Below are positions 3,744 to 63,538 of a stretch of 64,000 nt of DNA, piece after piece. Where the stretch lies: positions 47,074,406 to 47,138,405 of the forward strand of contig CM055101.1 in the NCBI GenBank assembly GCA_029204225.1. The letters run 5' to 3'. Both the position numbers and the translations under genes were made by a program. Numbering within the stretch: position 1 is the stretch's first letter; each line of letters starts with the position of its first letter. The notes beneath the pieces were generated by a model. That model had not been told where the DNA came from and ran no database searches. It saw only the letters and a list, made by a program, of their open reading frames with translations. Source of the DNA: Diphasiastrum complanatum. Its lineage: Eukaryota; Streptophyta; Lycopodiopsida; Lycopodiales; Lycopodiaceae.

Positions 3744-4245
3744 AGTGAGGATTTGATTATATTGGTCCAATTCACCCTGCAGCAAGAAGTACCCAAGCTC
3801 GATACATAATCGTGGCCACCGACTACCTCACCAAGTGGGTCGAAGCCAAGGCAGTGAGAGTAGCTAATGCTAGGACCACTGCCAAGTTTCTCTATGAAAA
3901 TATCATTGTGCACTTTGGATGCCCAGTGGAGATAGTCAGCGATCGCGGGAGACATTTAATCAATGAGACCTTCAAGGTCATGTTGGAGGAACGCCTTATT
4001 ATCCTCGCGGTAATGGGCAAGCAGAGTCATCCAATAAGCTCCTATGTAACGTACTCACGAAAACAATTGAAGCTAGCAGATCGGATTGGGAAACCAAGTT
4101 GTATGTTGCTCTGTGGGCATTCAGGACAACATATAAGAGAAGCACTGATCAGACGCCATTCCAATTGGTTTATGGTCAAGATGCTATAATGCCAGTAGAG
4201 TTTTTAGTCCCTTCATTAAGGATTGCCACAATGCAACATCTTGAT
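3744..4245 (+). pseudogene. Ty3/gypsy integrase fragment (fossil)
   Basis: The plus strand encodes a gypsy-type integrase core. FDYIGPI and ATDYLTKWVEA surround the first acidic residue of the DDE triad, and IVSDRG surrounds the second. A later stretch carries the NGQAES-like block with the glutamate, then a WAFRTTYK and TPFQLVYG tail typical of plant gypsy integrases. No reverse transcriptase or LTR of the same element is joined to it. It is broken (at least one break) and ends just left of the copia LTR at 4268. The more GC-rich codon use differs from the AT-rich surroundings. Confidence 0.85.
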
Positions 4246-4267: not shown

Positions 4268-4917
4268 TGTGAAAGATTTCAGATCCTTAAGATCCAATCT
4301 ACTTGAATGATCTTTGGTTAGAAAGAGAAATACACTACCAATTTCACCAATGTAGAAAAATCAGCATCTACACATAATTTGAGATGCAAACACTAATAGA
4401 ACTTGATCAAACTTGAATGAAATGATTATGTACTGTTGCTATCCGAACAAAAGCAGCAAGCTACTGTATTTCACACGTGTGGATCCAAAAATAGCAAATA
4501 TAGATCATTCTACACATAGAATTGCAAGCAATCACCAAGATAGTGCACCAATGGATAGTAGAACCCAAGAGAACCATGTATAAGCATGAAATGAGATAGA
4601 GAAGAGAGAAGATGACTCTCTCCATGAGCTACATCCTTTTATAGCAGGTCCAAACCCTATTTGACCACTTGGCTTTCCCACCAAAATGCTAACCCTACCA
4701 ATTTTGGGTCTAGATTCAATGTACCCAACTTATTCAAATTGAATATACTCAAACTCGCATTCTATCTTTCCCACACTTTCAAAAAGTGTTTATTCAAATG
4801 AAATTTAGACTAATGAACTTTGAAAAGTCAACCTCTAAGTCTAAAACAAGTTTTGGCCTCAATATGCCAAATATGAAAATATTGCAAAATGTGATGAAAC
4901 TAGTTGAATCTTTCACA
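4268..4917 (-). repeat. copia LTR (3' LTR of the 4268-8200 element)
   Basis: A 650-bp LTR whose ends form a perfect 11-base inverted repeat (TGTGAAAGATT at the left, its complement at the right). It directly follows the polypurine-rich end of the minus-strand RNase H frame (reads GAAGAGGGAG, then TGTGAA). The solo LTR at 45059-45709 is the same family, in the opposite orientation and almost the same length (651 bp). I found no matching LTR to the right of the element. Confidence 0.85.
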
Positions 4918-5473
4918 CTCCCTCTTCAACTAGTTTTAGCATAGACTTTGATAATACTCCAAGTGAAGTCCTATGCTTCATGAACAAGTCTTTTCCCAAT
5001 GCTTTGGTGAAGATATCAGCTACACATTCCCTTGAAGACACATGTTGAAGCTCCACCTCCTTTGCAATGACTCGCTCCCTCACAAAATGATATTGTATCT
5101 CAATATGCTTGCTCCTCGCATGAAAGATAGGATTGGATGCCATTCTTTGGGCTGATTGATTGTCACAAAAGATGATTGGGCTCTCTGAAAAATCCAGCAA
5201 GTGAAGATCCTTGATCATCCTTTTGATCCATACCATCTCCTTTGTGCAATGTGTAAGAGCTTTGTACTCGGCCTCACTAGATGACAATGAGATAGTGGCT
5301 TGTTTCTTTGACATCCATGATATAGCTCCATCACCTATGAAAATACAATAAGAACTAATGGATTTCCTATCTATTACATCTCCAGCATAGTCCGAATCTG
5401 AAAATCCAAAAAGATTAGGTGATGATCCCTCATACAATATGCCAAAATCTCGAGTTCCAATGATGTACCTCAA
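4913..5473 (-). pseudogene. copia RNase H domain
   Basis: This 186-residue frame is a copia RNase H. It shows DSDYAGD, the block SKKQATISLSSSEAEYKAL with the catalytic Glu, FCDNQSA, and HARSKHIEIQYHFVRE, followed by the VADIFTKALG tail that ends copia pol. It ends right beside the 3' LTR. The frame is open throughout this domain, although the reverse transcriptase that should precede it is absent. Confidence 0.9.
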
Positions 5474-5634
5474 AACTCGCTTTCCTAGCTTCCAATGCTC
5501 CTAGCATAGTTTTTGCCAATAGAACTTTGATCCATCATAATAATGATCTTCTTCCTAAGAATAGATCTCCTTTCAATGATCATGTAATGCTCAAAATAGA
5601 AACAACCATAATTGATATAGAGAATAGTGTCCAC

Positions 5635-6620
5635 TTAAGATGCTTCACTATTTCTTACATCAACAATACATGTAAAAATGTGACTAGAACATGAAGAATC
5701 AAATAGAATGTAAATGAAATGATTCCACCATGCTTCCAACTCTGAACTCTCTGGAAAAATACAGCAAACAAACAATAAATGTGAGTGATCAACTTTTGCT
5801 TGCATGTCTCCTCCTCCTTTGTCCTTTGTTGCCTTGTATTCACCATGATACTCCATGAATGAGCCTCCATCTTCATCTTGCCACAAGAAACCATCAAACC
5901 TTGGAAATCCATGAGTAGGTGAGTACATAAATGATGCAAATCTAGCACCACATGACTCCATAAACCAAGTAGTTTGCACTAGTCCATCTTCAAGATCTAC
6001 TTGACACAAGAAAATGACCATGAATTCACCAAAAATTGACAATCTCCAAGTATTGGCACCAAGTAGCTCAACACTTGAGAACTTAGCCATGGATGAGTGA
6101 CATAATGAACCTCCAATAGCTTCATTTCCATCAACAAAATCAGCCAAGAATGCTAGTACAAATCCAACATCAAAACAAGGGTCACCAATGTAGCTAGTTT
6201 TACCATATCTTGACAATTTGCACACATCCACATGAAATTGCTCAAACATGAGATAGAAAAAATAAAGTAAACTTGAACAACACTTCCTTTCTGCTCCTTT
6301 GACCTTAATTGAGTCTTCAATATGCTGCAAAAACATATCCATAACACCTTTGCCAATTACCTCTCCTTTGATGCTCTTGACTAGCTCCAAATTGCCAACT
6401 TCCCTTTTGACTAGTTGAAGCGCTTTGAGATCAACCTCTTGATCTTCAGCTTGACCATCAAAGTCATTGAACAAAATTTGTTTTCCAAATCCATTACTTA
6501 ATTTTACAGCAAGATAACATCCATCCACTTGCATAGCTCCATGTACACAAGAAGATTCTCCAAAAGATGTTCCACTCTTCATAAGAGATTGATACTCAAG
6601 ATCCATTGCTTGGATCCACT
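5635..6620 (-). other. non-retroviral reading frame inside a copia element
   Basis: A long open minus-strand frame (342 codons, 5635-6663) begins with about 35 residues of copia pol (EEEWIQAMDLEYQSLM) and then continues into about 300 residues that match no retroelement domain I know. I see no motif that names a function. The part at about 6215-6470 recurs in a second carrier, split over 37769-37820 and 44042-44215, with mostly conservative changes when read in this frame (for example DSIKVKG followed by RKCCSSLL in both). Two copies in the same position relative to gag and LTR suggest a captured host or foreign sequence spread by the copia family. Function unknown. Confidence 0.5.
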
Positions 6621-7170
6621 CCTCTTCTTTCCTTGCTTGATCTACACTTGTAGGATCATCCAAAGAGGTTAGGAAAGCAACATAATTTTAAGAAACTACT
6701 TGCTTACCCTTTTGATCATATGTGAGCCTTGAAGGTACTTGTCTTTCTCTTGATGTTCTCCTTGGCTTTTGACTTGATGAAGGTCCATCATCACCACCAT
6801 CCAAAGTAGGATCCTTCTCATCAACATCAAGAATGTTAGAACCATCTACTTTACCATCAATCATGCTTGAAGACACCTTTGGAATGTTTCCCTCATCAAA
6901 AATGACATCTCTACCAACAATCACTTTGTTAGTAGAAGGAATGTAAAACTTGTAGGCTTTACTCACCTCACTATATCCAACAAAAATACCTCTTCTTGAA
7001 GATGGATCCTCCTTGGTCCTATCATCAAGAGTAATGTTGACATAGCATGTGCATCCAAAGGTTCTTAGAAAGTTGACACTCGGCCTCCTCTTGAATAGCA
7101 TCTCAAAAGGTGTCCTTCCATCCAAAATAGCACTCGGCCACCTATTGCACAAGAAATTGGCACACAACAA
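6600..7170 (-). pseudogene. copia integrase C-terminal part
   Basis: The frame reads LCNRWPSAILDGRTPFEMLF, FGCTCYV, GIFVGYSEVSKAYK and DVIFDE. This is the C-terminal half of a copia integrase with its usual linker, ending in an RRTSRERQVPSRLTYD stretch that leads to reverse transcriptase. The integrase core with the DDE triad is not present in this copy. Confidence 0.85.
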
Positions 7171-7194
7171 GAAAAGATTTGCCTTCTTAGAGTC

Positions 7195-7508
7195 AATACT
7201 CTAGAAGTAGACTTGGATTCATAAAGCTTCTTCAATGAATTCCAAGCTTCCAAAGATGATGTGCACTTACCAACTTCCTTGAGAAGTTCATTGGTAACAT
7301 TCATCTTTATCATGTGTAGAGCCTTCTTGGCCCTCTTGTCATACCTCAATTGATCTTGTTGTGTTGCTGGTCTCTCCTCCAAACCTACAACAATATCCAA
7401 AACATCATTCATCTCAAGAAGTGACTCCATCCTCACTTTCCATAATGAATAGTTACTTGAGGTAAGCCTATCATTGGCTTCCAACATGACTCCAATTGAG
7501 GTTGCCAT
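7195..7508 (-). pseudogene. copia gag N-terminal part
   Basis: Starts MATSIGVMLEANDRLTSSNY and continues with SLWKVRMESLLE and a KKLYESKSTSRVLTLRRQIF stretch, the conserved N-terminal half of copia gag (UBN2-type). The same start motif (MAT..FMLE or similar) is seen at about 18500 and 44725, which ties these elements into one group. The zinc knuckle half is absent. Confidence 0.85.
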
Positions 7509-7569
7509 GTAGCAATGACCTGATCTTCTCTTTCAACCTGCTTCAATGCACAAAGCACTCCTTTGAACA

Positions 7570-8215
7570 ACAACAAATGGATTCCACCAATAAGCCCCCC
7601 AATTTGTAGATCAGAGACCTCGATCTCAAGAACAGTGACAAAATAAGGGCAAAATTCACCAAAACTGATGGATCAGCCACCCAATATCTATCAGAACTTT
7701 TAGAAAATTACCTACAGTCAGATCTAACATGGATGTAACAGATTACCAGTTTGCAAAAATTAAGGATCAGAGAATCTCAAAGATCTCATCAAAAAACACT
7801 CAAAAAGAGCATTTTTTCATGATTTTTGGAGATCTCCTGGGAATTAGCTCTTGAAACTTGGACAGTCACTAGATCTGACTTAGATGCATCTATGAAAATC
7901 TTTACGAGAGTTACTGATGGAAAAAACATCATTTTTTAGTGTTTGCGAGGGTTCCAAAGAGCAGAATCTTCAGAACCTTTGCAGAGCATCCATATCATCA
8001 AATCAACCTTCGCAAGGGGCATAAATGGAATCAGAGCAATGAAATTGTCTACATGGTTTGATCTTAAAAATCCAACCACTAGAGCAATTTGTGCGAGCAT
8101 TTACTTCTTGTGAGGATTGAACCCTCGCAGACTGTTTGAACCCTCGCAGAACCTTTGCAAGGCAGCCAAATCACCTTCTGAACTCTCGCAGACTTCTCTG
8201 AGGTCTTAAAATTAT
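7570..8215. other. copia leader, with a short degenerate GAACCCTCGCAGA repeat
   Basis: No gene. The stretch lies upstream of the gag start at 7508 and probably is the element's untranslated leader. Between about 8110 and 8195 the motif gaaccctcgcaga or a close variant occurs three times at irregular spacing of about 20-45 bases. The 5' LTR and a clear primer site are not visible. Confidence 0.5.
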
Positions 8216-14443: not shown

Positions 14444-14687
14444 TGTATTTACAACTTTAATATATAGATTCGCTATTGTTCTACACCTCAACATTCTTGT
14501 TATATGATAACTCTCGCTCCTCTCACACAAACACTATTAAGAAGAGATTTGTATGGCTATCTCTAATGTCTGAATTAATTCTACACTCTCTTCATATCAA
14601 GATATCAACAATAGAGGATTGCATGGCTATTTCAGACGCCTATTTGTTTTTGCAATCTTTCTTTCACGGTAGTCTATGACTCCTACA
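14444..14687 (+). repeat. direct repeat, copy 1 (about 244 bp)
   Basis: Repeats at 14792-15036 with about 92% identity by eye, 348 bases downstream. The 104 bases between the copies are not similar to the sequence before copy 1, so this is a direct duplication with a spacer and not a simple tandem. Each copy is short-coding at best (67 codons open, no known motif). Confidence 0.85.
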
Positions 14688-14791
14688 TTGATAATCTGAT
14701 TTCACACACAAAGAACTGTTCATAACTCCATTCTCCAAGTAATCCACGATTCTGCTAGTGGTTATAACAATTTGTTTTTTCTAACAGGAGC

Positions 14792-15036
14792 TGTATTTAC
14801 AACTTCAATATACAAATTCGCTATTGTTCTACACCTCAGCATTCTTGTTGAATGATAACTCTCGCTCCTCTCACACAAACACTATTAAGAAGAGATTTGT
14901 ATGGCTATCTCTGACGCCTAAATTAATTTTACACTCTCTTCATATCAGGTTATCAGCAATAGAGGATTGCATGGCTGACTCAGATGCCAAATTGTTTTTG
15001 CAATCTTTCTTTCACGGCAGTCTATAACTCTTACAC
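14792..15036 (+). repeat. direct repeat, copy 2
   Basis: Second copy of the 244-bp repeat. Its right end touches the copia LTR that starts at 15039, so the insertion of that element probably cut the repeat here. Confidence 0.85.
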
Positions 15037-15038
15037 TG

Positions 15039-18201: not shown

Positions 18202-19477
18202 GAGTTCAAATGGATGCTATGTTTTGATGTTTGATCTTAGAAAAGGCCTTCTGTCTGATTTTGCCAAAACACAAGCTTCACAAGGTTAAAGCTCCTTTGA
18301 CAGTGTCTTTGGTAGTCCAATAGCTTTTCCTTCCTTGACCATAGATTGCATGGCTTTGAAATTGGGATGACCCAATCTCTTATGCCACAGATCCTCCTGA
18401 AAATCATTCATCTCAAGCAAAGATTCCATCCTCACCTTCCAAGTTGAATAATTTGTTGAGCCTATCGTTGCCTTCCAACATGAAGCCACTTGAGGTTGCC
18501 ATGCTGCAATGATATGATCTTTCCTTTGAACCTGTTCCAATGCACTTAGCACTCTCTTGAAAATCAACAAATGAGACTCAAGAAGAAATCACAAAGATTT
18601 GGAAACAATCTAGTCTCTCCTTTTCTCTCTCTAGCAAATCCTAGCATGTAGAATGTTGATTTCTTCATCACAATAGATCTAAACACAATATGATGAACTT
18701 TTTCCAACACCTAAGATTGAAACACATTGTTGAAAAAGTCCATCAACTTAAAATCAAAAGATCCTATCAAATTTAGGGTTACTCCAAAAATGCAAAATAT
18801 TGATCAAGCAAAATCTATATGCAAAAGCTAGGATCTTGATATATCATCTAGAAGAATATAGCATCCATAATCATGAGCCATTTTTGTCTCCACATTCCAG
18901 TAAGTGGTATAAAAAATCGGCCTACTCCAAGTGATTTGACCTAAAATGATACTTGGATCACAAAGATCCACTTTCTAAACTTGAAAATGCAAGATTTGAG
19001 TTAGAAATTCCTCCAGATCCCAGATCCAGAACATACTTAATAGATCTCTAAGATCTTGACCAAATTTGGATGCACATATACATTTAGCTACAAGCTCAAA
19101 ACCATCAATTTTAGCATGCTAGAATTTCATAAATCACTAAATCTGATCATAAGCATAAAAGTACAATAAGGTACTATCCATGTCCATACAATAGCAGTAG
19201 CCTACTGTCCTTCACATGTGGAGGCATACATTTCCCAAATGATCTAATTATCTTCTATATGATAGTGGCAATTTCTGAATTTCTGTACCATGTATATATG
19301 TTGGAAAGAGGTGAGGATATGAGAGAGAAAATAATTCGACAAAGTCGAAGTAGGTGAGCGTGGCAGAAGAAACCTTCTTTCTTGTGCATAACTATGCCTC
19401 TCAATATTGAACAAAAAGTAGTGATAGAAATCATGGTCAATCTTTAGCAACTAAATTTGAAATCGCTAGCAACTAAG

Positions 19478-27189: not shown

Positions 27190-27349
27190 GAGGATGGATC
27201 GTTACTTTACTTGCATTAGTTTGAGTTGGTTTTGTTGCTTCATGTATCATAACGTGTTTTTGTTTTGCTGAAATCGTAACGTGTTATTGTTCTGCTGAAT
27301 TGCTTTTCAGTTAAGAGTAGTATCTTGGAGAGTTGCATCATCAGGAGCT

Positions 27350-29299
27350 ATGAAGAGTGCCGTTACTGCAATACTTTTGATGGTGGTGCTGTTATCCACC
27401 ACTGCTCTGGGACGACATGAGGATGAACGTGAACGTGAACGTGAACGCGAACGTCAGCGAGAACGAGAACGCCACAGACGGCAGGAGGGGCGTGGCGGTC
27501 GTTATTTTGAAGATCTTGAGCTCCGCAGACCGAAGCAGTTGATCAGGTCCGAAGGAGGGCAGTTAGAAGAATGGACTAGCGACGACTTTAAAGCACTTCG
27601 GGACGCAAACATGGCTGCAGCCAAGATCACGCTGAATCCGCGTGGATTGGCGCTTCCTGCTTACATTGACAATCATGCAATTAAAGTTATAGTAGCAGGT
27701 GATTCTTTATGCTCTTTTGTGGTAATGCCCATGCAAATTCGTGTCTGAATTCAGGTTTTACATAAGCAGTATGTGCATCAGCTATATATAATATGAGACT
27801 GTTGATGTCAAGTGCAGGAAGTGCGAGGATGGGGCTTGTCTTGCCATGGGGGGATAGAGCTATCCAGCGCAACGTGTATCGTGTTCAGAAAGGAGACGTG
27901 GTTGCAATTCCAAGGGGAGTGCCGAACTGGTGGTATAACGATGGTGACGAGCGTACTGAAATTGTTGCCATCGTTGATACTGTGGGAGGCGAACAACCTG
28001 GCCGTGTTGAAGTAAGTTGCCCAGAGTCTTATTAGCGACTGTTTACATTGGCCTTCATCGTGTGCTATTGATTCTTGAGCTTTTTGATTGAATCTCGGCA
28101 TGTACAGTGCTTTGATCTTGCCGGAGGCCGTGAGGGACGTTATGGAAGCGTTCTACGGGGATTTGATCGAGAGATTCTCGCTCAAGCTTGGGACGTCGAT
28201 GAGCAGACAGTAACACGCCTGCTTGAGAGCCAAAATGAGACTGGCATTATTCGAGTTAGAGAAGGTATTGAAATGCCCGAAGTTGCAACAGAAGGATCAA
28301 ATACATATTTTGCTGATTTTGTCTACCGCGTGGAAAGATCCCACGCTGATGTACGGGTCGAACGGGGAGGGCAACTGCATGTTGTCAATCGATACAAGTT
28401 GCCAGTGTTGAAGCATTTGGATTTGGGGATGGCTTGCGTCAAGCTTGAGCCAGTACGTCAAAATCAATAGTTCAATTTTCCCTAAAGAATTGGCGTTTGA
28501 TACCTATCGTTATTTATCGTATGAATAAATCTGAACATGTTATAGTATTTTTTCCACCGCCGCCTCTAAAATTTTGAAGGTTTTCACAGCAACAATGTGT
28601 TTACATTTGTAAAATTTTATATGCGCTCCTGGCTGGTAGTAAATGCACACTTTTTATCTATGTAAATTGTTCACTGCCGGATTGAAGTGAGCATCTTACA
28701 ATTTCACTTTGTTTTGTAGAATGCAATACGTGCTCCAGGATGGACTGTGAATGCACACCAGGTTATTTACGTTGTGCGAGGCAGTGGTAGAATCCAAATC
28801 GTCCGGAATAATGGTGAACAGGCTCTTGATACTGAAGTTAAAGAAGGATCGTTGGTTGTAATTCCTCGATCCTTCCCCGCCGCCAAGATAGCAGGAAGCG
28901 ACGGGCTCGACTATCTTTCTGTTTTGACTTCAGACATGTACTGTTTCTATTGAAAATTTTGCTTATTTCTTTCTGTGATTTAGCCTAATTTACAAGTACT
29001 TATAGAAATGTTTAGTTTCTTTTTGGTCATTACTTCGGATCGCAATGCTTTGATTTTCTTGCAGGCCGCTTACTCAAGAACTTGCTGGAAGGAACTCGGT
29101 GTACAATGGGATTCCCTCTGCGGTTGTAGCACGCGCATTTAATATAGACGAGGATCTTGAAAGGAAGTTACGGGAACGTCGTAGTGAAGAAGCTTTCATC
29201 CTGCCTCCACGATCGGGACGCGAGCGAAGGAAGGAGCAGCCAAGAGATAATGTCGCGGCGGAGGCATCTAGTGAATTTCTTCGCTTTCTAGGATTTTGA
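27350..29299 (+). CDS. 11S-globulin-like (legumin-type) bicupin storage protein, 5 exons
   Basis: Exons 27350-27698, 27818-28011, 28108-28452, 28720-28937 and 29065-29299 join in frame (1341 nt, 446 residues); all four introns are GT-AG. Residues 1-21 form a signal peptide ending TTALG, so the protein enters the secretory route, as vacuolar storage globulins do. Residues 22-50 are an Arg/Glu-rich run. Two cupin domains follow (about 55-190 and 285-430), with 11S hallmarks IRSEGG, FDLAGG, LRGFD, NVDEE-like DVDEQ, VNRYKLPVL, WTVNAHQVIYVVRGSGR and LAGRNSV. The Asn-Gly-x-Glu-Glu cleavage site of 11S precursors is not present; the aligned spot reads EGSNTYF. The two cysteines that link acidic and basic chains are also missing. 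A sequon NET lies at residue 224. It looks intact. Most likely a storage globulin that stays a single chain; the family call is firm, the processing claim is inference. Confidence 0.9.
27699..27817 (+). other. intron 1 of the 11S-like gene
   Basis: 119 bases, donor GTGATT, acceptor TGCAG, phase 1. Splicing here restores the cupin frame (VIVAG then SARMGL). Angiosperm legumin genes usually have three introns; this gene has four. Confidence 0.85.
28012..28107 (+). other. intron 2 of the 11S-like gene
   Basis: 96 bases, donor GTAAGT, acceptor TACAG, phase 0, between GRVE and CFDLAGG. Confidence 0.85.
28453..28719 (+). other. intron 3 of the 11S-like gene
   Basis: 267 bases, donor GTACGT, acceptor TGTAG, phase 0, between VKLEP and NAIRAPGW. 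It lies just ahead of the second cupin barrel, where 11S genes commonly have an intron. Confidence 0.85.
28938..29064 (+). other. intron 4 of the 11S-like gene
   Basis: 127 bases, donor GTACTG, acceptor TGCAG, phase 2, within the second cupin domain (between LTSDM and PLTQEL). This is the extra intron relative to the three usual in angiosperm legumin genes. I recall a four-intron legumin gene reported from a gymnosperm, but cannot check positions here. Confidence 0.8.
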
Positions 29300-29750: not shown

Positions 29751-31716
<1,966 letters not shown>

Positions 31717-31721
31717 TGCAC

Positions 31722-32426
31722 TGATAGCAATCGCGGAGTTTCGAAGATGAAGGTCGGATAGGGTCGATTTGATGGGAGTAGCTATTGCTACTCACTGTTG
31801 TCCAATTCTCTTCCAAGCTTTTGATCGTTTGGGACATTTCATTGTAAAATTAAACTTGTAAACAACATAAAATGTTGAGTAAGACAACAGCGGAAAGTTA
31901 TCTACTACTAGCATGCATTCCAATATTGTAGATTATACACATTACAGAACAGAGCATTGCTGGAATCGCTTCTATTGTTAGAACTAAATTTACAATATTT
32001 TCTTGAGCGCTGTCTGTGTCCCAAATCAGCACGTTGGCGCAAGAGAGATGTTCTCCCCCATGAATAATATGATTAGCTATTCCTACTCTGTAAATTCACT
32101 CTCGAGATATCTCAAACTTTTACAGTTCTATACGTGTGACAACATCAGTCTGTATCTGTGATCTCCTTATTTACTGTATCTTTTGTTGAACCTTTTATGC
32201 GATCAATTCAGAAAACTGATTAAGTTAAAAGATTTAATAAAAAGAAATACATTAGGCTTAATCAAAAGTGAATCTAGTTATGACCAAGAATTGCGGACTG
32301 GTTGAAACAGTTCAAAATTGCAGACTATGCAAAACATAGTTCAAAATGCAACAGTCATGAAAAATAACAAAGAAAAACTAAGAATAATACCAAGGCTTTG
32401 AAAGATAGAAACTCTTAGTTTCTTCA
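31722..32426 (-). repeat. 3' LTR of the 31722-37608 element
   Basis: 705 bp, TGATAGCAA at the left and TTTCTTCA at the right, directly after the polypurine tract GAGAGAGAGC of the minus strand. It lacks an internal block of about 300 bases that is present in the 5' LTR. Confidence 0.9.
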
Positions 32427-33029
32427 GCTCTCTCTCAAAGCTGATATTTTTTTGATTCCTAGGCTTGCATGCTGCTTCTCAAAAAATTGCCTTGTCAAGA
32501 GGCTTTGTGAAAATATCAGCCACCATCTGCTTGGTTGGAATAAACCGGTCTTTAGCCTGTCTTTCTCAACCAGATCTCTTACTAGATGAAATCTGATAGC
32601 AATGTGTTTTGTCTTGGAATGAAACACTGGATCCTTCATTAGATGAATGGTGGATATGTTATCCATAAACAGTAGCAGCGACTCGTTGGAGTTCTCTCCC
32701 AGTCTGTCAAGGAACTGCTTGAGCCATGTAAGCTCGTTCGCCATCTTGGTTGCTGCAACATACTCTGCTTCGCAGGATGATTGCACAGTTATAGTCTGCT
32801 TCTTGTTGACCCATATCATAGCTGTATCGGCTGCTATTGCACATCCTCTGGAGATGTTCTTGTAGTCATCCTTCAAGGATGTCCAACTTGCATCGTTGTA
32901 GGATTTTATAAAAAATCCTTCATGCTGAGAGAAACAAAGCCCATAATCTTTCGTCTGTTGAAGGTATTGCAGAATTCTCTTAGCTATCTTCCAGTGCGTA
33001 GGTCTTGGATTGATATTGAACTGGCTCAT
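32424..33029 (-). pseudogene. copia RNase H (31722-37608 element)
   Basis: Shows HWKIAKRILQYLQQ, the SSCEAEYVAATKMANELTWL block with the catalytic Glu, LFMDNISTIHLMKDPVFHSK and HIAIRFHLVRD. The whole domain is open. The final residues overlap the polypurine tract. Confidence 0.9.
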
Positions 33030-33099
33030 TCTGAAATTGCATAAGCAATGTCAGGGCGTGTATTATCTGCCAAGTACATGAGTGATCCGATCAGCCTCT

Positions 33100-34334
33100 T
33101 GTAGGACACGTTCTGCATGGTTTTCTGCTCTTCTGCATTCTACGGGCAGTCCTGTTTTGTCAGAAATTGTTCCAGACACCATTGGTGTGTTAGCTCCATT
33201 GCAGTCCATCATTTGAATTTCATCAATGATTTTTTGGATGTATTTTGACTGGTGAAGATACAGCTTCCCTTCGTCAAGGTCTTTGTCAATCTACAATCCT
33301 AGGTAGCATCTCGTTTCCCCTAGGTTTGATATTTCAAAATGCTATGAAATATCATGCTTCACCTGAGCAATCAAGTCATCTCTTCTGGACAAAATCAAAG
33401 TGTCATCAACGTAGACATCAATGATTATGATTTTCTCATCTGTGACCTTTGTATAGACATTGTAGTCGGCCATCAATGGCTGAAATCCTAAGGATATGAG
33501 GGTGTGATCCTTCTTCTTATACCACTACCTGGCAAACTACTTCAGTCCGTATATGCTTCTTTGCATTTGGCAGGTGTAGTTGGCAAAGGATATACAAATG
33601 AATCTTGGAGGTTGGTCCATGTAGACCTCTTCATTCAGCTTGCTATATAAGAAGGTGGTCTTTTCATCCACTATGTGGATCTTGAGACTGTATGTTGCTG
33701 CATATGCAAATAGTAGGCATATGGATGAATGCTTTACGACTAGAGAAAAGGTTTCAGTATAGTCAATACCATACTTCTGAGAGAAACCTTTTGCTACCAA
33801 TCTGGCCTTGTACTTTGATACGTTGCCATCAGGTTCATACTTGTATTTGAAAACCCACTTGCACTTTACAGTCTTCATGTCTGCTGGTAATGGCTCCAGA
33901 TTCCAGACTTTGTTCTGCTCCATGGAATTCATCTTGTCTTCCATTGCTTTAATCCACTTGTCCTTATCTGGACAGCTGATAGCTTCCTCATATATTTGAG
34001 GTTCTTCCCCAAATCCACAGAATTCTTCTGTTGCATAAGATGAGCTATTAGGGATGAATCTGACATGTGCTCTTCTTTCTCTCATGGATCTTCTTGGAGA
34101 GTCTGCAGTCATATCGATGGCCTTGTCTTTGTCAAGTTTCTTGCCTTTGCTGACTGCTGAACTGTGGTGAGTAGTCGGTGTCCTGGTGAATACAGATTGC
34201 ATGTCTTGTTGCTCGTCATCTGGACAGTCAATTTGTCCATCTGGAATTTGAACATCTTCTTCCGGATGCTCAGGGTCCGCTCCCTCCGTTGATGTTGGCA
34301 TGTTGATAGTCTTGATCTGTCTGTTGTCAAGCAT
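33100..34334 (-). pseudogene. copia reverse transcriptase (31722-37608 element)
   Basis: The larger open part (33537-34334) begins with an acidic linker and continues with RRSMRERRAHVRFIP, KDKWIKAMEDKMNSMEQN, VKCKWVFKYKYEPDGNVSKY, RLVAKGFSQKYGIDYTETFS and MDQPPRFI. The C-terminal part with the catalytic aspartates lies around 33390-33430. Several breaks. Confidence 0.85.
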
Positions 34335-34382
34335 GTAGATCCTATAGTATGATGAATGAACATCATATCCTACGAGGAATCT

Positions 34383-35147
34383 CTATTCCACCTTTTCATC
34401 CAGTTTCTTTCTTTTATGATCTGGAATGTGGGCATATGCGACGCATCCAAAAATGTGCACATGTGTCAGACTTGGTTTGTTGCCCCACCAAATCTCGTGT
34501 GGCGTGGTATGTGCAACACTAGATCTACCTCTCCTGTTCTGCAGGTAGTTGGCTACAGCTACTGCTTCAGCCCATAAAAAGATGCCTTTGATTAGGCCAT
34601 CATGGATCTCGTAGCTTCCATGAGAGTCCGATTTCTCCTCTTTGCTGCACCATTGTGCTATGGTGTGTAGGCTGAAGTCTTCAAGTGAAGTATGCCTTTG
34701 CTGGTGCAAAACTCTACAAAGTGTTTGGAGACATATTCTCCTCTTGTGTCCGTTCTCAGCTGCTTCACCTTCTTTGTCAGTCCATTTCTCAGCCCAATTC
34801 ACAAACTTTGTGAATTTGTCCAGGGCCTTTGACTTATTGTGGATGAAGTACATGGCTGCAAACTTGTTGAAGTTGTCAATGAAGGTAATGTAGTACTTTG
34901 AACCTCCCAAGGAGACCACATCAAACGGTCCACAGATGTCGGAGTGTACCAGCTCCAAGAGTTCTTTCATTATGAAAGAGTCCTTGGTGAATGGTATACA
35001 TGACATCTTGCCTTTGTTACAGGCATCACAGGACTTCAAGCATGTTGTGTCTTTGATATTCACTCCAATGAATGCTCTACTCCAGCTAGAGTTGTATAAA
35101 ACAACTGTATTCATGTGATATAGTCTCATGTGCCATACAATATCCAT
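34383..35147 (-). pseudogene. copia integrase (31722-37608 element)
   Basis: Shows the N-terminal HHCC end (CDACNKGKMSCIPF), LELVHSDICGPFDVVSLGGS and ITFIDNFNKFAAMYF around the first Asp, and the C-terminal KGIFLWAEAVAVANYLQNR, TTPHEIWWGNKPSLTHVHIFG and AYAHIPDHKRKKLDEK. Broken between the two halves. Confidence 0.85.
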
Positions 35148-35221
35148 CGATTCATTGATCTGGTGAGCTTTCTTTGAGGGTACTTAGATTCTATGGTGAT
35201 ACAGGTTCCCCTTTCATTTTC

Positions 35222-35706
35222 CTATGGTGACAAGTTGAGTGGTTGCAGGTTCAACCACTTCACAGGTATCACCTTCAAAGGTCCTACATCTACCATCTTA
35301 GCAACAAATAGTAGGTCCTTCTGAAGAGTGGGCATGTATAGAGTGTCATTGAGCCTTCTGTCTCTTCCTTTGGTGCTTAACCACAAAGCTCCAGTTCCAC
35401 TAAATTTGTGTCTGGAACCATCCCCCAAGATTATATATCTGGAAGATTCTGATCCTTGATAATCATTAATCTTGTGTCTTGTTGCCACGAAGTGTGACGT
35501 TGCACCTGAATCAAGAATTATTTCTTGTGTATCTGACGTTGATGTCGCACATACATCACTACACAAGTAAGTTGTTGGGTTCTTGTCGTTGTTGGCTCTG
35601 TCTTTGGCCATCTTGGAGGACTCGGGTTCATCCATGTAGGATGAGCTATTGTCACTCTCCCGTTTGCTTTGAGATTTCTTGTTGCAAGGATTTTCGTAGC
35701 AGTCAA
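35222..35706 (-). pseudogene. copia protease region (31722-37608 element)
   Basis: Contains the aspartic protease motif ILDSGATSHF with the catalytic Asp, followed by YIILGDGSRHKFSGTGALWL and TLYMPTLQKDLLFVAKMVD, the usual flow from protease into GAG-pre-integrase. Confidence 0.85.
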
Positions 35707-36063
35707 CAGCTGCGTGACCCTTTTTGTGACAGTGGATGCACTCTATTTTTGGATTGAGCCAGCACTTATCAATAGTGTGGCCTTCTCATGTGCATCTCGT
35801 GCAGGTCTTCTTCCACCATTCTACTAGCTCGGTTTACTTATGCTCATCCATTTGTCTTTTTTGGCTCTCTCTGACTATTGCTTTAGATCTTGTCTTTGGT
35901 CTAACTCCCTCCTAGGCTTGAAATTCTTCTTTTGCTTATCTTTGTTGTACAGAGCTTGATCAGAGCTATCCTTGTCATCAAGATGTTCACAGGCTTTCAC
36001 CTCTTCTTTGATCTCGATAACAGCCTTCTCGAGGGTCATCTATGGGTCTTTAGCAAGCAATGT

Positions 36064-36567
36064 TCAGGTCGTTTGAAACGATCTTGGTAGAGCTAGCAGT
36101 AGGTATGTGAGCTGCTTTTCTTCTGAGACTGCACTCTTTGTTCCGGAGTTGTGTAGTGAAAGGAACAGATCCTTCATTCTTCTAATGAAGGAGGTGAGGT
36201 CTTTACCATTCCATCTTAGATTGGTCAGCTGATCTTCAAGAAGCATAATTTGGCTTCGTGACTTCATTGGAAATCTGGTCAGCAAAGTATCCCACATTTC
36301 TCTCGCATTGGAGAGTGTGGCTAGATCAAGCATTAAGATGTCTTCGATGGAGGAAGATATGACAGCTACTGCCTTGTTGTTTCTTTCTCTCCATTCCCAT
36401 AGCTCTTTGCCAATGGTTGTGGAAATCTCTTTTGTGCCATCAACCCATGGCCATAGACCTTCTCCTTTCAGTATGAGAGAAGTCTTCACCTTCCATGCTA
36501 GGAAGTTTGATTCTGAGGAGCCAAGGATCGTGAAGATCTTTGATTGAATGTTGCTAATGGATGCCAT
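36064..36567 (-). pseudogene. copia gag (31722-37608 element)
   Basis: Starts MASISNIQSKIFTILGSSES, then FLAWKVKTSLILKGEGLWPW, LATLSNAREMWDTLLTRF and MLLEDQLTNLRWNGKDLTSF. A copia gag of a different lineage from the MATS/MSSM-type gags elsewhere in the window. The zinc knuckle follows further downstream at about 35715-35810. Confidence 0.85.
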
Positions 36568-36590
36568 AGCCTGAAGGAATCAAGGCAGGG

Positions 36591-36602
36591 CTCTAATACC
36601 AC
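36591..36602 (-). other. primer-binding site (initiator Met tRNA type) of the 31722-37608 element
   Basis: The minus strand reads TGGTATTAGAGC, one mismatch from the usual TGGTATCAGAGC complementary to initiator Met tRNA, next to the 5' LTR end. Confidence 0.75.
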
Positions 36603-37608
36603 TGATGGAAACCGCGGAGTTCTAGAGATGAAGGCCAGATAGTGCCGACTTGTAGGAGTAGCTATTGCTACTCACAGCAGTCCAATTCTCTTCTAAGCCC
36701 CAGATGGTTTGTGACAATCCATTGTAAAATTAAACTTGTAAATAGTAGACAATGTTGAGTAAGGCAACAACGAAACGTTATCTACTGCTAGCATGCATTC
36801 CAATATTTCATATCATACACATTACAGAACAGAGCATTGTTGAAATCGCTTCTATTATGAGAACGGAATTTACAATATTTTCTTGAGCGTTGTCTACTTT
36901 CCATATCAACGCGTTGGCACAAGAGAGATGTTCTCTCTCATGAATAAAATGACTAGCTACTGCTAATCTGCAAACTCACTCTCGAGCTATCTCAAACTTT
37001 TATAGTTCTGTATGTGTGATAGTATCAGTCCGTATCTGTGATCTCCTTATTTACTATATCCTTCATTAATCCTTTTATGTGATCAATTCAGGGAACTGAT
37101 TAAGTTAAAAGATCTAATAAAAAGAAATGCATTACGCTTAATCAAAACTGATTCTAGTTTTCTGTCACTGTTCTCCGTGCATCGGTCCCTTTCTGCCCGT
37201 TAGACAGAGTCTTCACGTCGCAGACCTTTGCATTTTAGAAAAAGACATTCGCATTTATCAAGGGAATTTGGAGACAGTGTCGCATTTTTCCAAAGGGTGA
37301 AAAATACAACAAACTCGAAGGTAGGCTTGAAAAACATTTCTAAGGCATTTACAAGACAATGTCGCATTTTTTTCGGAATGCAAAAAAAGTGACAGTGTCG
37401 CGAGAGTTGGCAAAAAATATTTTCTAAGTGTTTTTGACTTAGTGCTGTATTTTCCTTATGACCAATAATTGTGAATTGTGCGACGAAATAGTTCAAAATT
37501 GCAAACTGTGCAAAACATAGTTCAAAGCGGCAACAGTTAGGAAAAACAACAAAGAAAAACTAAGAAAAATGCTAAGGCTTTGAAAGATAGAAACTCTTAG
37601 TTTTTTCA
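36603..37608 (-). repeat. 5' LTR of the 31722-37608 element
   Basis: 1006 bp, starting TGATGGAAACC and ending TTTTTTCA. It contains about 300 bases (roughly 37158-37456) absent from the 3' LTR. That block holds three GTCGCATTTTT-like units, the same motif class found in the LTRs at 13790, 20040 and 48090. Confidence 0.9.
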
Positions 37609-37820
37609 TGCACATTATTGTATGGTTACAGTAACACACTAATCATTTTCAATTTCCATTGTCTCACTTGCTAGTGCAAGAGCCACAAAAATTCCTAAGA
37701 AGTGTTACTTCTAAATAGCTTAAGCGGATAGAGTTGGTTCCATTCACATTACATCATATTATATTGTTTCACACACATCCACACAAAATTGCTCAAACAT
37801 GAGATAGAACAAGTAAAGTA

Positions 37821-38557
37821 TGTTGAATTTCACATGTGTGGACTGTCCACTACATGTACTTGTGATCTCCTAAGGTGTGTAGATGCACCAAGATCAAGAC
37901 TAGATTGAGATTCAAGATCAATCTTGAATCCTATGGCAAAAACACACTACTACATGCATTCAATCACTTCCAACTCTCACTCACACGTGTGGGAAGTATT
38001 CAAAAAATAATCTAAGTAAAAACAAGCTGCTCTCCTTGGGTAGAGAGAGAAAATGCATCATGAGCTCTCGGGTAGAGAGAGAAAGCTAGAAATCCAATAA
38101 CTCACAAAATCCATAAAATCACCAAATCAATTAGCTTCAAAATGAGGAGTACAATGATACTAGTAGGTCCACGAGCTATCACTATGCTTAACTATGATTG
38201 GACCATATTTTGTCACCTCTTGATCCTATTGGATCATTGATCCATGCACCTCTTAATTCTATTGGACTATATTCAAGCACACCTCAATTTCCTATTGGAC
38301 CTCACAAGGTTCCACCTCTAAATCCTATTGGACCTCTTGGAATTCATCAAACAAAAAATTTGCACTTGTCTACACTCTAATTGGCAAGTGTTTAGCCTCT
38401 TACTCTATTTTGGCTCAATAGTGGCATTACAAGTGGAAATGCATAATTTGCCATCTATGCCAAATTTATTCCTATCAACATCCTACACCTAGATGCTTGA
38501 TGTAAAAAACATAAGACCCCTATATCTAACATAGATAATCTTTTTCAATTCTTCACA
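37821..38557 (-). repeat. 3' LTR of the 37821-44041 element
   Basis: 737 bp, TGTTGAATTTCACA at the left, CTTCACA at the right next to the polypurine GGAGGAG on the minus strand. Confidence 0.95.
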
Positions 38558-38575
38558 CTCCTCCTAAAAAATTAT

Positions 38576-39853
38576 CTATGAAGATTTGAGCATTGATCTT
38601 GATATAACTCCAAGATTAGATCTATGCTTGATGAAAGCACTTTTGCTCAAAGGCTTGGTGAGTAGATCGGCAATACAAGAGGACGAGTTGACATGCTCCA
38701 AATATATTTCTCCTCCAATAAGCTTTTCTCTCACAAAATGGTGTGCCACTTCTATGTGCTTGCTTCTTGCATGAAATATGGGATTATTGGCAAGAGCTTG
38801 GGCCGAGATGTTATCACACTTGATCATTGGTAGATCATCCTCCTTGATGCACTTTAGTTCCATTAATAACCTCTTGATCCAAAGCACTTCTTTGGTAGTT
38901 GTAGTGAGTGCTTTGTACTCGGCCTCACATGAAGAGAGAGATATAGTATCTTGCTTTTTGGAAAGCCAAGATATTAGATTGCCTCCAAGAAAGATAGTGT
39001 ATGCACTAATAGACTTTCGATCCATCTTGTCACTAGCAAAGTCCGAATCCGAGTAGCCAATAATGGATAGATCTTCACTTTTATAGAGTAGACCATAATC
39101 ACAAGATGAAGATACATATCTTAGAATCCTCTTGGCTATCTTCCAATGATGGATCTTAGGATCTTGCATAAATTGACTCAATTTGTGCACACAAAAACTA
39201 AGATCGGGCCTAGTAATGGTAAGCCAAATCAAGGAGCCTACAAGACTCCTAAAAAGTGTGATGTCCTCAAAGGATCTTTCATCACCTTTATTAGGATCTT
39301 TTACAATTTGCTCCATTGGAGTATCTATGCTCTTAGAATTTTCCATATGAAATTTTTTCAACATAGAGTTAGCATATCTAGATTGGCATATAAAGACATG
39401 ATTTTCATAAAAATCAATTTCTAGGCCTAGGATGTAATGTATCTCTCCTAGATCTTGCATTTTAAACTCACATCCAAGTGCTAGCTTGGTTTCATCAACT
39501 AGCTTGATACAACTTCCACAAAGAATAATGTCATCAACATAAATTAGAAGAATGAAAATATTGCTATCAACAAACTTTAGATACATGGAAGGATCATAGT
39601 CACTAAGAGTAAATCCTAGTGAGATAAGAAAAGAGTTAAGTCTTGAATACCATGATCTTGGTGCTTGCTTGAGTACATAAAGACTTTTGAAGAGCAAGCA
39701 CACTTTGGACTCATCCTTGATGAATCCTTGAGGTTGTTCCATATAGATCTCCTCCTGAAGATAACCATTTAGAAAAGCATTGGATACATCTAATTGGAAC
39801 ACCTTCCACTTGAAAAAACAAGCAAGAGAAATAAGAATTCTTATTGTCACCAT
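38576..39853 (-). pseudogene. copia reverse transcriptase and RNase H (37821 element)
   Basis: A 425-codon open frame. Reverse transcriptase: FQLDVSNAFLNGYLQEEIYM, VCLLFKSLYVLKQAPRSWYS and the catalytic ILLIYVDDIILCG. Connection: SLIWLTITRPDLSFCVHKL. RNase H: SDSDFASD, SLSSCEAEYKALTTTTKEVL, IKCDNISAQALANNPIFHA, HIEVAHHFVREKLIGGEI and ADLLTKPLSKSAF. The catalytic motifs look complete in this part. Confidence 0.95.
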
Positions 39854-41448
39854 CTTTGCAACGGGTGCAAGGTCTCCTCATAATCAAGACCATGGATTTG
39901 AGCAAATCCTTTGGCACATAATCTTGCTTTATGCTTGTTGATGGTGCCATCATGATTGAACTTGATCCGAAATACCCACTTGCAACCAATCACATGCTTG
40001 TTGGATGGAGGATCCACAAGCTCCCAAGTATTGTTGGTGATCAATGCATCATACTCTTGCTTCATGGCATCATACCACTCCTTGGTATTGAGTGCCTCTT
40101 GTACATTCTTTGGCTCTTCATGAGAGACATAAAAAACATAATTAGTGGAATCAAGATCCACTTGTTTGCGTTTGTCAACATATGAGAGCCTCTTAGGCTT
40201 GGATCTATCTCTCATGGATCTTCTTGGTGAAAAAATCCGAGGAGAGTCTTCTTCAAATCTCGAACCCATCACATCATGATTGCCTTCAAAATCAATAATT
40301 GATGATGCATCCATAGATTTCTTGATCTCGACCTCTTCAAATGATGAGTGTTGATCTTCATGAAAGACAACATCTCTACTTTCAATAACTTGAGAAGTAG
40401 AGAGTATAAAGACTCTATAGGCCTTCTTGGTGGATGAGTATCCAACCATGATCCCTTTGCATGCACTAGGATCTTCCTTCTTCCTTGTTTCCAAGGGAAT
40501 ATGGACAAAGCATAAGCATCCAAAAACTCTAAGGTGATCAACCTTAGGCTTCTTCAAAAATAAGATTTCATATGGTGACCTTCCTCCAAGAGCTATATGT
40601 GGGAGCCTATTGCAAAGATAATTTGCACAATTAATGGCTTCTCCCCAAAAATCTTTGTGCAAAGATGCCTCAATTCTCATAGATTTTGCACATTCACATA
40701 GAGATCTATTATTTCTCTCGGCCACTCCATTTTGAGATGGAGAGTAGGCACAAGAAAACTCTCTTTTAATGCCTTCAAGCTCACAAAAATCTTGAAATTT
40801 ATTGGAGATATATTCACCACCTCCATCACTTCTAAGAGCTTTAATCTTGAATGAGAATTGCTTCTCTACATAAGCTTTGAAAATAAGGAAATGATCAAAC
40901 ACCATAGATTTTGAAGCAAGAAGATATATCCAAGTGAATCTTGTGTAATCATCAATGAAAGTAACAAAACAAGTGGCTCCTCCCTTGCTTGTAGTTGATG
41001 AGAAATGCACATCCGAGTGGATTAACTCTAAAGGATGCTTGCTTTTGATAGAAGATCTTGTAAATGGCTTTTTGTGATATTTAGCAATAGCACAAGCCTC
41101 ACAAGGCTTGATCTTCTTGGAGAATGACTTTGGCAAGCCAATAGCTTTGGATTCTTTGATCATAGAGAGCATGGATTTGTAGTTGGGATGTCCCAACCTC
41201 CTATGCCATAATTCCTCCATAGAGAGCTTGTTCACAAGAGCAACATTACAAGCATTCACATACTCATTTGGATCTAGTTTATAGATGCCACCAAATCTAG
41301 ATCCTAATGCAAGTATCTCATCATTCTTCTTGATAGTGCAAGTATCAACATTGAATTTTACATCAAGGCCATTATCAAGCAATTGGCCAACACTAATAAG
41401 ATTCTTGGTAAGCTTAGGTACATAAAGAAAGAACTTTAGAGGATGCAA
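39847..41448 (-). pseudogene. copia integrase and reverse transcriptase start (37821 element)
   Basis: A 533-codon open frame. It starts in the protease tail (PLKFFLYVPKLTKNLISVGQ) and goes on with GAG-pre-integrase (LWHRRLGHPNYKSM, CEACAIAKYHKKPF). The integrase core follows (LELIHSDVHFSS, TFIDDYTRFTWIY, LRSDGGGEYI, SPSQNGVAERNNR), then the C-terminal part (VFGCLCFVHIPLETRKKEDP). The frame ends in a reverse transcriptase start (WELVDPPSNKHVIGCKWVFR). All three DDE residues are visible. Confidence 0.95.
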
Positions 41449-42601
41449 GCTTCAAGGGAATGTTCCCTATGCCTTCAATAGGACATTCAAAATCATTTGC
41501 AGTGTATATTGATTTCTTGACTCCATCATAAGGTGCAATAGAAGAGAAAGAGTCCTTGGAGCTACACATATGTGAAGAGGCTCCACTATCAATATACCAT
41601 AGGCCGTCCTTCTTGAAAGGAGTAGATGAGAAACTAGAGACCATAAGAGATCCCTCTCCATCACTTGCAATATTGTCTTCCTTCTCATTGGTAATATTGG
41701 CTTGCTTGAGTTGATTCTTCTTTTTGAAGCAATTGGTGGCATAATGACCTTTCTTGCCACAATAAAAGCACTTGATCTTCTTCTTCTTGAGCTTGGATGA
41801 TGAAGCATTAGAGGAATCATGTTCCTCCTCATCTTTGTCTTTGGATTTGACTTTGTCCTTGCTTGAGGATTGTTGATGTTGGTTCTTGCTCCTCCCTTTA
41901 TGCTTATCCTTGGCAAAGAGAGCTTTGCCATCATTATGAGTGAGAGAAAGCTTGTCCATCCTCAAGAGCTTGTACTCTTGTCTTGATTCTTCTGAAATTA
42001 GCACACTTTGGAGAGCCTCCAAACTTGGTAGCTCCTCCTTAATGGCATAGGATTGGACAAGGTTATCAAATTCACTTCTCAAGCCATTGAGAATGACTTG
42101 AACTAGCTCATTTTGATTGGTGGAATCACCAATGCAAGCAAGCTCTCTATGAATATCTTTTACTCTCAAAACATAACTAGATGCACTCTCATCACTCTTT
42201 TGGCTACTTTGAAAGATTTGATTCCTAAGAGTGAGAAGCCTAGAGGTATTCTTAGCCTCATAGATAGTCTTGAGACAATCCCAAGCTTCTTTGGCTATTG
42301 TACAAGTACCTATCTCCCTCAATATCTCATTAGAGACATTCATCTTAATGTAGTGGAGAGCCATCCTAGCTCTCTTTTTGTATTTTTGAACCTCTTGAAG
42401 AACTTGTGGTTCTTCTTCAAGGCCAAGAACTATGTCCATCACGTCTTGAAGGATCAAGATGGACTCCATCCTCATTTTCCAAATTGAATAATTTGAAGTG
42501 GTCAATCTTTCACTTGGTTCCAACAAGGATGAACCCATTGAAGACATTTGAAGTGAAGAAAACTCAAATGATGAACAATAAATGTTGTTACACACTTTCA
42601 A
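41414..42601 (-). pseudogene. copia gag and protease (37821 element)
   Basis: A 395-codon open frame; the likely gag start is the MSSMGSSLLEPSERLTTSNY methionine near 42547. Gag body: WKMRMESILILQDVMDIVLG and NTSRLLTLRNQIFQSSQKS. A Ser/Lys-rich stretch follows, then a CCHC knuckle (CFYCGKKGHYATNC) and the protease motif LWYIDSGASSHMCSS. Confidence 0.95.
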
Positions 42602-43291
42602 TAGGATCCAATAATTGAGTACTATCTCCTCCTATGAAAGATCTTGCAACAATTTGTGAATTGATTCTCACTAGCTACTCAAATCTCTCTAAAACAAGAT
42701 CTATTTCACATCAAATGATGGAGTATAGGCAAAGTTAGGATCTAACACTCTTAGCACATGTGAAATACACTAAGAAACCAAATTTGACTCAAATACAATG
42801 ATATTGCATGAAACAAAATGGCTAAGATCTCAAAACAGTGCCTAGATCACATATAGATGAGATTGGCAAGCATACAACTGTGATTTTGGATCAACCAAGC
42901 AATCTCTTGACCAAACCAAATGTGTCCACCCAGGTCTAGGTGCCCTACCTAACCCTCTTCAAAAGCTTATAACTTTTGATTGGCTCAACCAAATGGAATG
43001 AAACTGATTGCAACAGAAACTAGACAAAAATAGCTTTAAAACAAGCTATCAAGCAAGATAAATGGATCAAACATGAGAGAGAACTTCCAAACTGAATTTG
43101 GATGTTCCTCACACGTGTCTGAGCACCTGATTCCGTACAGTACCAGGTCAGACCCAATCAATGTCCTTTTGATCTCTTTTGATCCAAGATTGAACAAGAT
43201 AGCTAGGAAAATGGGCCTTGACAACTTCTAGCTCAAGATTAATGAAAAAAATTTCACTTAGATGGATCAAAATGCATGGTAACCTTAGGTA

Positions 43292-43304
43292 GGCTCTGAT
43301 ACCA
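43292..43304 (-). other. primer-binding site (initiator Met tRNA) of the 37821 element
   Basis: The minus strand reads TGGTATCAGAGCC immediately after the 5' LTR, the standard copia primer site. Confidence 0.95.
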
Positions 43305-44041
43305 TGTTGAATTTCACACGTGTGGACTGTCCACTACATGTACTTGTGATCTCCTAAGGTGTGTAGATGCACCAAGATCAAGACTAGATTGAGATTCAAG
43401 ATCAATCTTGAATCCTATGGCAAAAACACACTACTACATGCATTCAATCACTTCCAACTCTCACTCACACGTGTGGGAAGTATTCAAAAAATAATCTAAG
43501 TAAAAACAAGTTGCTCTTCTCGAGTAGAGAGAGAAAATACATCATGAGCTCTCGGGTAGAGAGAGAAAGCTAGAAATCCAATAACTCACAAAATCCATAA
43601 AATCACCAAATCAATTAGTTTCAAAATGAGGAGTACAATGATACTAGTAGGTCCACGAGCTATCACTATGCTTAACTATGATTGGACCATATTTTGTCAC
43701 CTCTTGATCCTATTGGATCATTGATCCATGCACCTCTTAATTCTATTGGACTATATTCAAGCACACCTCAATTTCCTATTGGACCTCACAAGGTTCCACC
43801 TCTAAATCCTATTGGACCTCTTGGAATTCATCAAACAAAAACTTTACACTTGTCTACACTCTAATTGGAAAGTGTTTAGCCTCTTACTCTATTTTGGCTC
43901 AATAGTGGCATTACAAGTGGAATTGCATAATTTGCCATCTATGCCAAATTTATTCCTATCAACATCCTACACCTAGATGCTTGATGTAAAAAACATAAGA
44001 CCCCTATATCTAACATAGATAATCTTTTTCAATTCTTCACA
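43305..44041 (-). repeat. 5' LTR of the 37821-44041 element
   Basis: 737 bp, nearly identical to the 3' LTR (about 11 differences by eye). It abuts the primer site on its left and AAGTA on its right. Confidence 0.95.
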
Positions 44042-44727
44042 AAGTAAACTTGAACAACACTTCCTTGCTGATCCTTTGACCTTAATTGAGTCTCCAAACA
44101 CCTACAAAAATAGATCCAAAAGATCTTTGCCATTTAACTCTCCTTTGATGTTTTTGTCTAGCTCCAAATTGCCAGAAGCCTTTTGAGACCAACCTCTTGA
44201 TCTTTCTCTTGACCATCGAAGATATGAATATCTTCAAACCTGAACCTCTGGAAATACTCCCTCTCAAACATATGACTTAGATCCAACAAGATCTCATCAA
44301 TGCTTGATCTCGACTTTCTACAAAGGTTAGCGAAAACAATGCCACCATCATAAAGCAAAAGATAGATTCCAAACTCTCCATCCAACATGAAGTACAGTAG
44401 GTGAAGATGAGTATCAAACTTAATCAATCCAGCCCTCTTGAGTCCATAACAAACATCAATAAGCTCACCAATGAGATAATATCCCTTGCATTGAAGAAAT
44501 TGCCTCTTGATTTGCTCCATGTAGTCTTCTCCAACCAACCTTTTGACATCTCAACCATGAGTGAACATTTCACCATAGTCATAGAATTCTTTGAGTTGAT
44601 GAAGAGATGCGAGATCCATGCCTTGGATCTTCCCAAGAACCAATCTTCCATTGCCCTTTCCTTCACAAGACTCCCTCTTAATGATTGCATCGCTTTCCAA
44701 CATAAAGCCTCCATTTGTAGCCATGTT
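44042..44727 (-). other. gag start fused to a non-retroviral reading frame, second carrier
   Basis: On the minus strand the stretch opens with a gag-like start (MATNGGFMLESDAIIKRES) and then runs into sequence unlike any gag: DYMEQIKRQFLQCKGYYLIG, HLHLLYFMLDGEFGIYLLLY, RSSIDEILLDLSHMFEREYF and DGQEKDQEVGLK. The last motif has a partner DGQAEDQEVDLK at about 6435-6470 in the element at 4268, and similarity continues to the left (to 44042, then 37820-37769 beyond the nested element). The frame is not intact. I cannot name the source protein. A few gag codons followed by foreign coding sequence is the arrangement known from host-gene capture by LTR elements such as maize Bs1. Confidence 0.55.
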
Positions 44728-45058
44728 GCAATGACCTGATCCTCTTTTTCAACCTATTCCAATGCACAAAGCACTCTCTTGAATGTCAACAAATGAACTC
44801 AAGAAGAAATCACAATATCATGAACTTTGGTACTTGCTAAACTTGAAACACACTCTTGAAAAGTCCAACAACTTAAAAAACAAGAGATCCAAACAAATTT
44901 AGAGTTTTGACAAAAGTATAAAAAATTGAATCATCCAAATTCTATATGCAAATGCTACAAAGTTGATATAGAATCTTGTATTCTTCAATGAGAGCTTCTT
45001 AATGCAATTGAATTTTCCCAAACCCATTAAGTGAAGTGTGAAATCTGCCAAGTTCATA

Positions 45059-62624: not shown

Positions 62625-62716
62625 GTATCTATATAATGAATCTAATCCATTTTAGGGTTTAATGTTTGAGTATATTTAACTAAGCTTATGTTTAATTTGG
62701 TTTATGAACTGTGCAG
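62625..62716 (+). other. intron in the CACTA transposase
   Basis: 92 bases, GTATCT donor and GTGCAG acceptor, phase 1. Removing it joins LSECSG to LTTSGYNACYICG, the order expected in TNP2 proteins. Confidence 0.75.
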
Positions 62717-63450: not shown

Positions 63451-63538
63451 GTTTGTATATTTTTTTAAGCACTTGTATATATGTGTTATTTCAATATTTT
63501 TATGTGTTAAACAACCTAATGTATTATCAATCTTGCAG
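63451..63538 (+). other. second intron in the CACTA transposase
   Basis: 88 bases, GTTTGT donor and CTTGCAG acceptor. It joins NLSSMIR to WISSKEI at the TNP2/DUF4218 transition. Confidence 0.7.

Follow-up and report, generated by a model that had tools for sequence, protein, structure and literature searches.

Gene capture by LTR elements is described for maize, rice, sorghum, wheat and barley in the parts of the literature consulted. The maize LTR element Bs1 carries transduced segments of the genes for membrane ATPase, xylan endohydrolase and beta-1,3-glucanase (PMC13317346). For LTR-captured genes of rice, the mean Ka/Ks is 0.92 (PMC3726574). The titles and abstract openings listed by literature searches on lycophyte elements and genomes mention no cargo of the kind reported below.

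The window, the whole 64,000-nucleotide stretch of Diphasiastrum complanatum DNA that was analyzed, includes two copia remnants, carrier 1 and carrier 2, all parts of which are on the minus strand. Both hold a related segment of non-copia sequence (the cargo). These are probably what is left of a non-autonomous copia family from a clubmoss (Lycopodiaceae): a captured foreign coding segment took over a large part of gag-pol and is now decaying.

Organization of the two carriers

Carrier 1 starts with a gag piece of about 100 codons (7200-7508, minus strand; start codon at 7508; ORF 7065-7532), identified by PF14223 (Retrotran_gag_2) with an E of 1.5e-14. The gag piece joins directly onto the integrase end, that is, the C-terminal part with its SH3-like domain (6688-7200, minus strand; PF25597, SH3_retrovirus, E 1.1e-27). 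After a stop codon at the end of integrase, an open frame of 350 codons follows (6687-5638, minus strand). A comparison by eye with two fuller copias in the window identified its first approximately 40 codons (6568-6687, minus strand), reading ...WIQAMDLEYQSLMKSGT, as the beginning of copia RT, and served to set the boundary as well. At this point RT ends, and non-copia sequence of approximately 1.05 kb (about 6567-5510) takes the place of the element's own polymerase. The coding-like cargo (5510-6567, minus strand) is open to 5638, and after the stop codon its similarity to the protein P0001 (see below) goes on to about 5510. The first-pass annotation had described a frame without retroelement domain in place of RT; this holds for the cargo, which lies in a minus-strand frame of 350 codons and matches nothing in Pfam at E<=1, but not for the first approximately 40 codons, which are copia.

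Integrase, RT start and cargo of carrier 1 share one frame. The end of RT and RNase H (4916-5500, minus strand; ORF 4913-5500), ending with SKSMLKLVEEGV, are read in a frame different from that of the cargo, which was counted against capture. RNase H gave no match in a Pfam search at E<=1 and was assigned by the DNA match of 5219-5412 to 38870-39063 of an intact copia. The backbone is thus that of a copia, with a copia-type gag and a minus-strand order of gag, integrase end, RT start and RNase H. The purine-rich GAGGGAGTG is located in the last pol codons, directly before the start of the LTR-like sequence, which would begin with TGAAAG at the TGA ending pol. Of the 3' LTR only a part was found (4308-4915, minus strand), 4308-4918 being 70% like 45060-45670 on the opposite strand. 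The 8-nt repeat CTATGCTA is present in the pol tail (4937-4944, minus strand) and at the joint between cargo and RT end (5502-5509, minus strand); these two copies, at 5509-5502 and 4944-4937, are the two edges of the RT-end/RNase H piece, and the third and last minus-strand occurrence in the window is at 61284-61277.

No RVT_2 match was obtained in Pfam for carrier 1, whereas the window's intact copia gave one with an E of 9.7e-50. Carrier 1 also yielded no protease, integrase core or RT, and therefore it should not move on its own. Within the window neither a 5' LTR nor a TSD was found for either carrier, and as neither of them shows both LTRs, their movement as one unit is hypothetical. An open frame that seems to resemble a gypsy-type integrase (3749-4189, plus strand) lies close to where the recognized part of the carrier 1 LTR ends.

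Carrier 2 has a gag start codon followed by approximately 10 gag codons (44692-44724, minus strand), recognized by DNA matches of 44695-44795 to 7479-7579 and of 44692-44815 to 18470-18594. These codons (MATNGGFMLE) lead straight into the cargo, which extends from 44691 downwards in the frame of the gag ATG. The first piece of this cargo (44042-44691, minus strand), fused in frame behind the gag codons, includes one TGA and later a frameshift and a second stop; the second piece (37768-37820, minus strand) is separated from it by a younger copia nested in the cargo (37821-44041, minus strand). The nested copia has an LTR pair of 98.5% identity, the TSD AAGTA (37816-37820 and 44042-44046), and gag, integrase and RT recognizable by Pfam. 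The frame of carrier 2 is shifted by a 19-nt gap, and its cargo is decayed.

The recurrence of the segment in a second carrier, claimed in the first-pass annotation, was confirmed by two DNA matches, one of 92% identity between 6221-6269 and 37772-37820, and one of 78% identity between 6264-6463 and 44041-44221. The similarity stops at 37768-37772. The 5' cargo joints differ between the two carriers, and the cargos themselves differ upstream of the common stretch, the latter being counted against capture; for approximately 100 nt of the carrier 1 cargo upstream of the common stretch, no match was found within the window.

Several other features were observed in the window. An LTR element just downstream of carrier 2 (31719-37608, minus strand) has LTRs of approximately 85% identity (31719-32426 and 36600-37608), the second being about 300 nt longer. 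Beside the leader of carrier 2, an LTR-like stretch (45060-46200, plus strand), 70% related to the carrier 1 3' LTR on the opposite strand, is followed at 46201 by a primer site that matches TGGTATCAGAGC perfectly. Two 247-nt direct repeats of 90% likeness, with starts 348 nt apart (14444-15038), lie just below another copia copy. A cupin (vicilin-like) gene at 27299-28470 (plus strand) lies in two pieces, which matched PF00190 at E 1.3e-08 and, short of the curated cut-off, at E 3.9e-04; the pieces probably belong to a single host gene that is broken or has an intron. At 30724-31104 (plus strand), a CT microsatellite produces an open frame of 126 aa with a long LS repeat, which is hardly a gene. 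Three open frames of 122-148 aa at 62216-63815 (plus strand) may resemble a CACTA-type transposon protein.

Coding character of the cargo frame

The length of the cargo frame was compared with that of frames in 2000 random sequences generated by a first-order Markov model of 5501-6700, none of which reached 350 codons (maximum 176 codons). The GC content by codon position of the carrier 1 cargo is 0.48/0.35/0.28. With a codon-usage table derived from the window's own intact copia, the coding frame of the cargo scored 0.135 in carrier 1 and 0.141 in carrier 2, while the ten other frames of both cargos gave -0.063 to 0.078. Among the controls, parts of the copia training set scored 0.142 and 0.138, the integrase and RNase H of carrier 1 scored 0.129 and 0.096, respectively, and the cupin scored 0.155. 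One reverse frame of the cupin, at 0.127, and one of the non-coding LTR, whose scores reach 0.078, were high as well; these controls, and the training of the table on copia from the same window, were counted against coding. Frame length and codon usage together suggest that the cargo was formerly protein-coding.

Between carriers 1 and 2, 73 codons can be compared, with 29 nucleotide changes distributed by codon position as 11/11/7. The motifs DSIKVKG and RKCCSSLL, pointed out in the first-pass annotation, are indeed kept in both copies in this codon comparison. The translations differ at 20 of the 73 codons, one difference being a stop, and 20.8 +/- 2.0 differences are expected without selection when the same changes are placed at random (5000 runs; P 0.43). 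The BLOSUM62 sum of 269 is likewise close to the 264 +/- 13 expected under no selection (P 0.37), and dN/dS, calculated with the stop codon left out and having little power at 73 codons, is 1.29. The earlier proposals that the copies differ mostly by conservative changes, and that this reflects past selection on a protein, were not borne out by these values. The copies in the window behave as under drift, and selection on the protein between them is not supported. Drift makes it mildly surprising that the frame of carrier 1 is still intact: the probability that its 350 codons stay free of stops is 0.016 when half of the divergence is placed on its branch and 0.11 when a quarter is, in a model that leaves indels outside.

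Relatives of the cargo

The coding frame of the carrier 1 cargo gave no Pfam match at E<=1, and none was obtained with the five other frames of 5501-6640 (X at stops) or with P0001. The carrier 2 pieces gave Pfam matches only at E 0.08-0.26, each under the curated cut-off. NCBIfam and PHROGs at E<=1 yielded nothing for the carrier 1 frame, P0001 or the carrier 2 cargo. The whole carrier 1 frame matched no PDB sequence at E<=10; further PDB searches gave nothing or isolated matches, at E 1.2, 2.5 and 2.6, the last of these obtained with a profile built from carrier 1 plus P0001 and taken as noise. None of six peptide patterns of the carrier 1 frame was found in a scan of IMG/VR. The predicted structure of carrier 1 (mean pLDDT 30.0) was too poor to use.

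The stretch GLIKFDTHLHLLYFMLDGEFGIYLLLYDGG of carrier 2 looked like a decayed kinase catalytic loop, and a kinase was therefore considered as a candidate and rejected. An 84-aa piece surrounding this stretch gave in Pfam at E<=10 one non-kinase match (E 0.1, under the cut-off), and in PDB none of 177635 sequences matched at E<=10. The best of 190 Foldseek matches had an E of 0.59, obtained with a model (mean pLDDT 43.8) too poor to weigh.

Protein searches for a parent gene covered candidates of 192-763 aa for the carrier 1 part and 103-763 aa for the carrier 2 part (192-612, 240-763 and 103-329 aa, as set by query length), and no parent was found among them, which was counted against capture; a longer parent, or a relative with few 5-residue words in common, may exist. 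Of these searches, the composite one (2025 candidates) and the carrier 2 one (68 candidates) gave none at E<=10. Among 751 scored candidate proteins, one alone matched carrier 1 at E<=0.001: a hypothetical protein of 233 aa from Diphasiastrum complanatum (O6H91_02G086300), here called P0001, which is 76% identical over 95 aa and 46% identical over a stretch of 144 aa.

P0001 and carrier 1 have the cargo end in common up to the 8-nt repeat CTATGCTA, and the residues TM of P0001 fit the spot of this repeat, at the passage from cargo to pol tail. The last 11 residues of P0001, KTMPKLVEEGV, agree at nine positions with the pol tail of carrier 1, KSMLKLVEEGV, both being followed by a stop. Taken alone, this tail match has an E of 2.1 when the window is searched blindly; here it was tested at one fixed place. 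From the likeness of its tail to the carrier 1 pol tail, P0001 is probably another copy of the element, that is, a third carrier, rather than the parent gene of the host. In that copy, by the simplest account, the RT-end/RNase H piece would have been lost between the CTATGCTA repeats, or else the reverse joint might have been formed via template switching. The missing RNase H and inner stretch could also be annotated introns, P0001 being a gene model known from its protein only.

Origin of the cargo and comparison with known systems

If the cargo was captured from a cell, RNA of a coding segment would have been joined to element RNA, by read-through or co-packaging, and reverse transcriptase may then have switched templates at short common stretches. 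The resulting chimera would have retained the gag start, pol tail, PPT and LTRs, which would have allowed helper copias to copy it in trans. One copy had the cargo open in frame behind the start of gag, and another had it open in the frame of pol.

The cargo might instead be an additional ORF (aORF) native to the copia family, without cellular parent, around which RT was lost. The only relative found seems to lie inside a copy of the same element, and no parent appeared among candidates up to 763 aa, as would fit the antisense aORFs, for which similar genes outside the elements are lacking and the origin is mostly unknown according to PMC7264820. The same paper, however, places aORFs most commonly between pol and the 3' LTR and describes transduced genes as usually sense and of one or few copies, as found here. 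Furthermore, an aORF comes on top of gag-pol, whereas in carrier 1 gag and integrase are truncated and RT is replaced by the segment, which in carrier 2 follows the first approximately 10 gag codons; no element within the window has the cargo ORF beside an intact gag-pol. A native aORF is therefore considered doubtful, though deserving of some weight. An open frame that arose by chance in decayed or rearranged transposon DNA and was never coding would agree with the dN/dS of 1.29, the codon-position differences of 11/11/7 between the carriers, and the lack of a recognized domain. It is unlikely in view of the 350-codon frame, which was reached by none of the 2000 Markov sequences and shows coding-like codon usage, and of the stop-free state of carrier 1 (P 0.016 to 0.11 under neutral drift).

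The window is full of nested elements, and the cargo could be the trimmed remainder of some other mobile element or virus that had been captured or had become nested here; the in-frame joints of both carriers, the lack of any Pfam or PHROGs match of weight, and the absence of all six carrier 1 peptide patterns from IMG/VR make this highly improbable. Capture of a foreign coding segment by the copia family is preferred among these explanations. A rather improbable extension would be that the capture also created a new chimeric gene, encoding a lineage-restricted protein of approximately 350-450 residues whose translation begins at the gag start codon, and that the element has spread this gene, live copies of which are under selection elsewhere in the genome. 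Cargo copies with different joints would extend capture by LTR elements to lycophytes, and the stages of capture would be displayed as gag fusion, pol fusion and possible loss between short repeats.

By their anatomy, the carriers look like a gene-capturing, non-autonomous LTR element of the Bs1 type. As in Bs1, foreign coding segments on an LTR element form a chimeric frame, but the parents of the Bs1 segments, as far as described, are three known genes (PMC13317346), whereas none was found for the carriers, which are lycophyte copias with RT replaced. The captured genes of rice and sorghum also reside on LTR elements, those of rice with a Ka/Ks near neutral, as here; they were matched to annotated genes (PMC3726574), whereas the present cargo matches none found. 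With the aORFs of plant LTR elements, the cargo shares the nature of an extra ORF whose only relative found appears inside an element, but these aORFs are mostly located between pol and the 3' LTR (PMC7264820), and the present cargo is in the place of RT.
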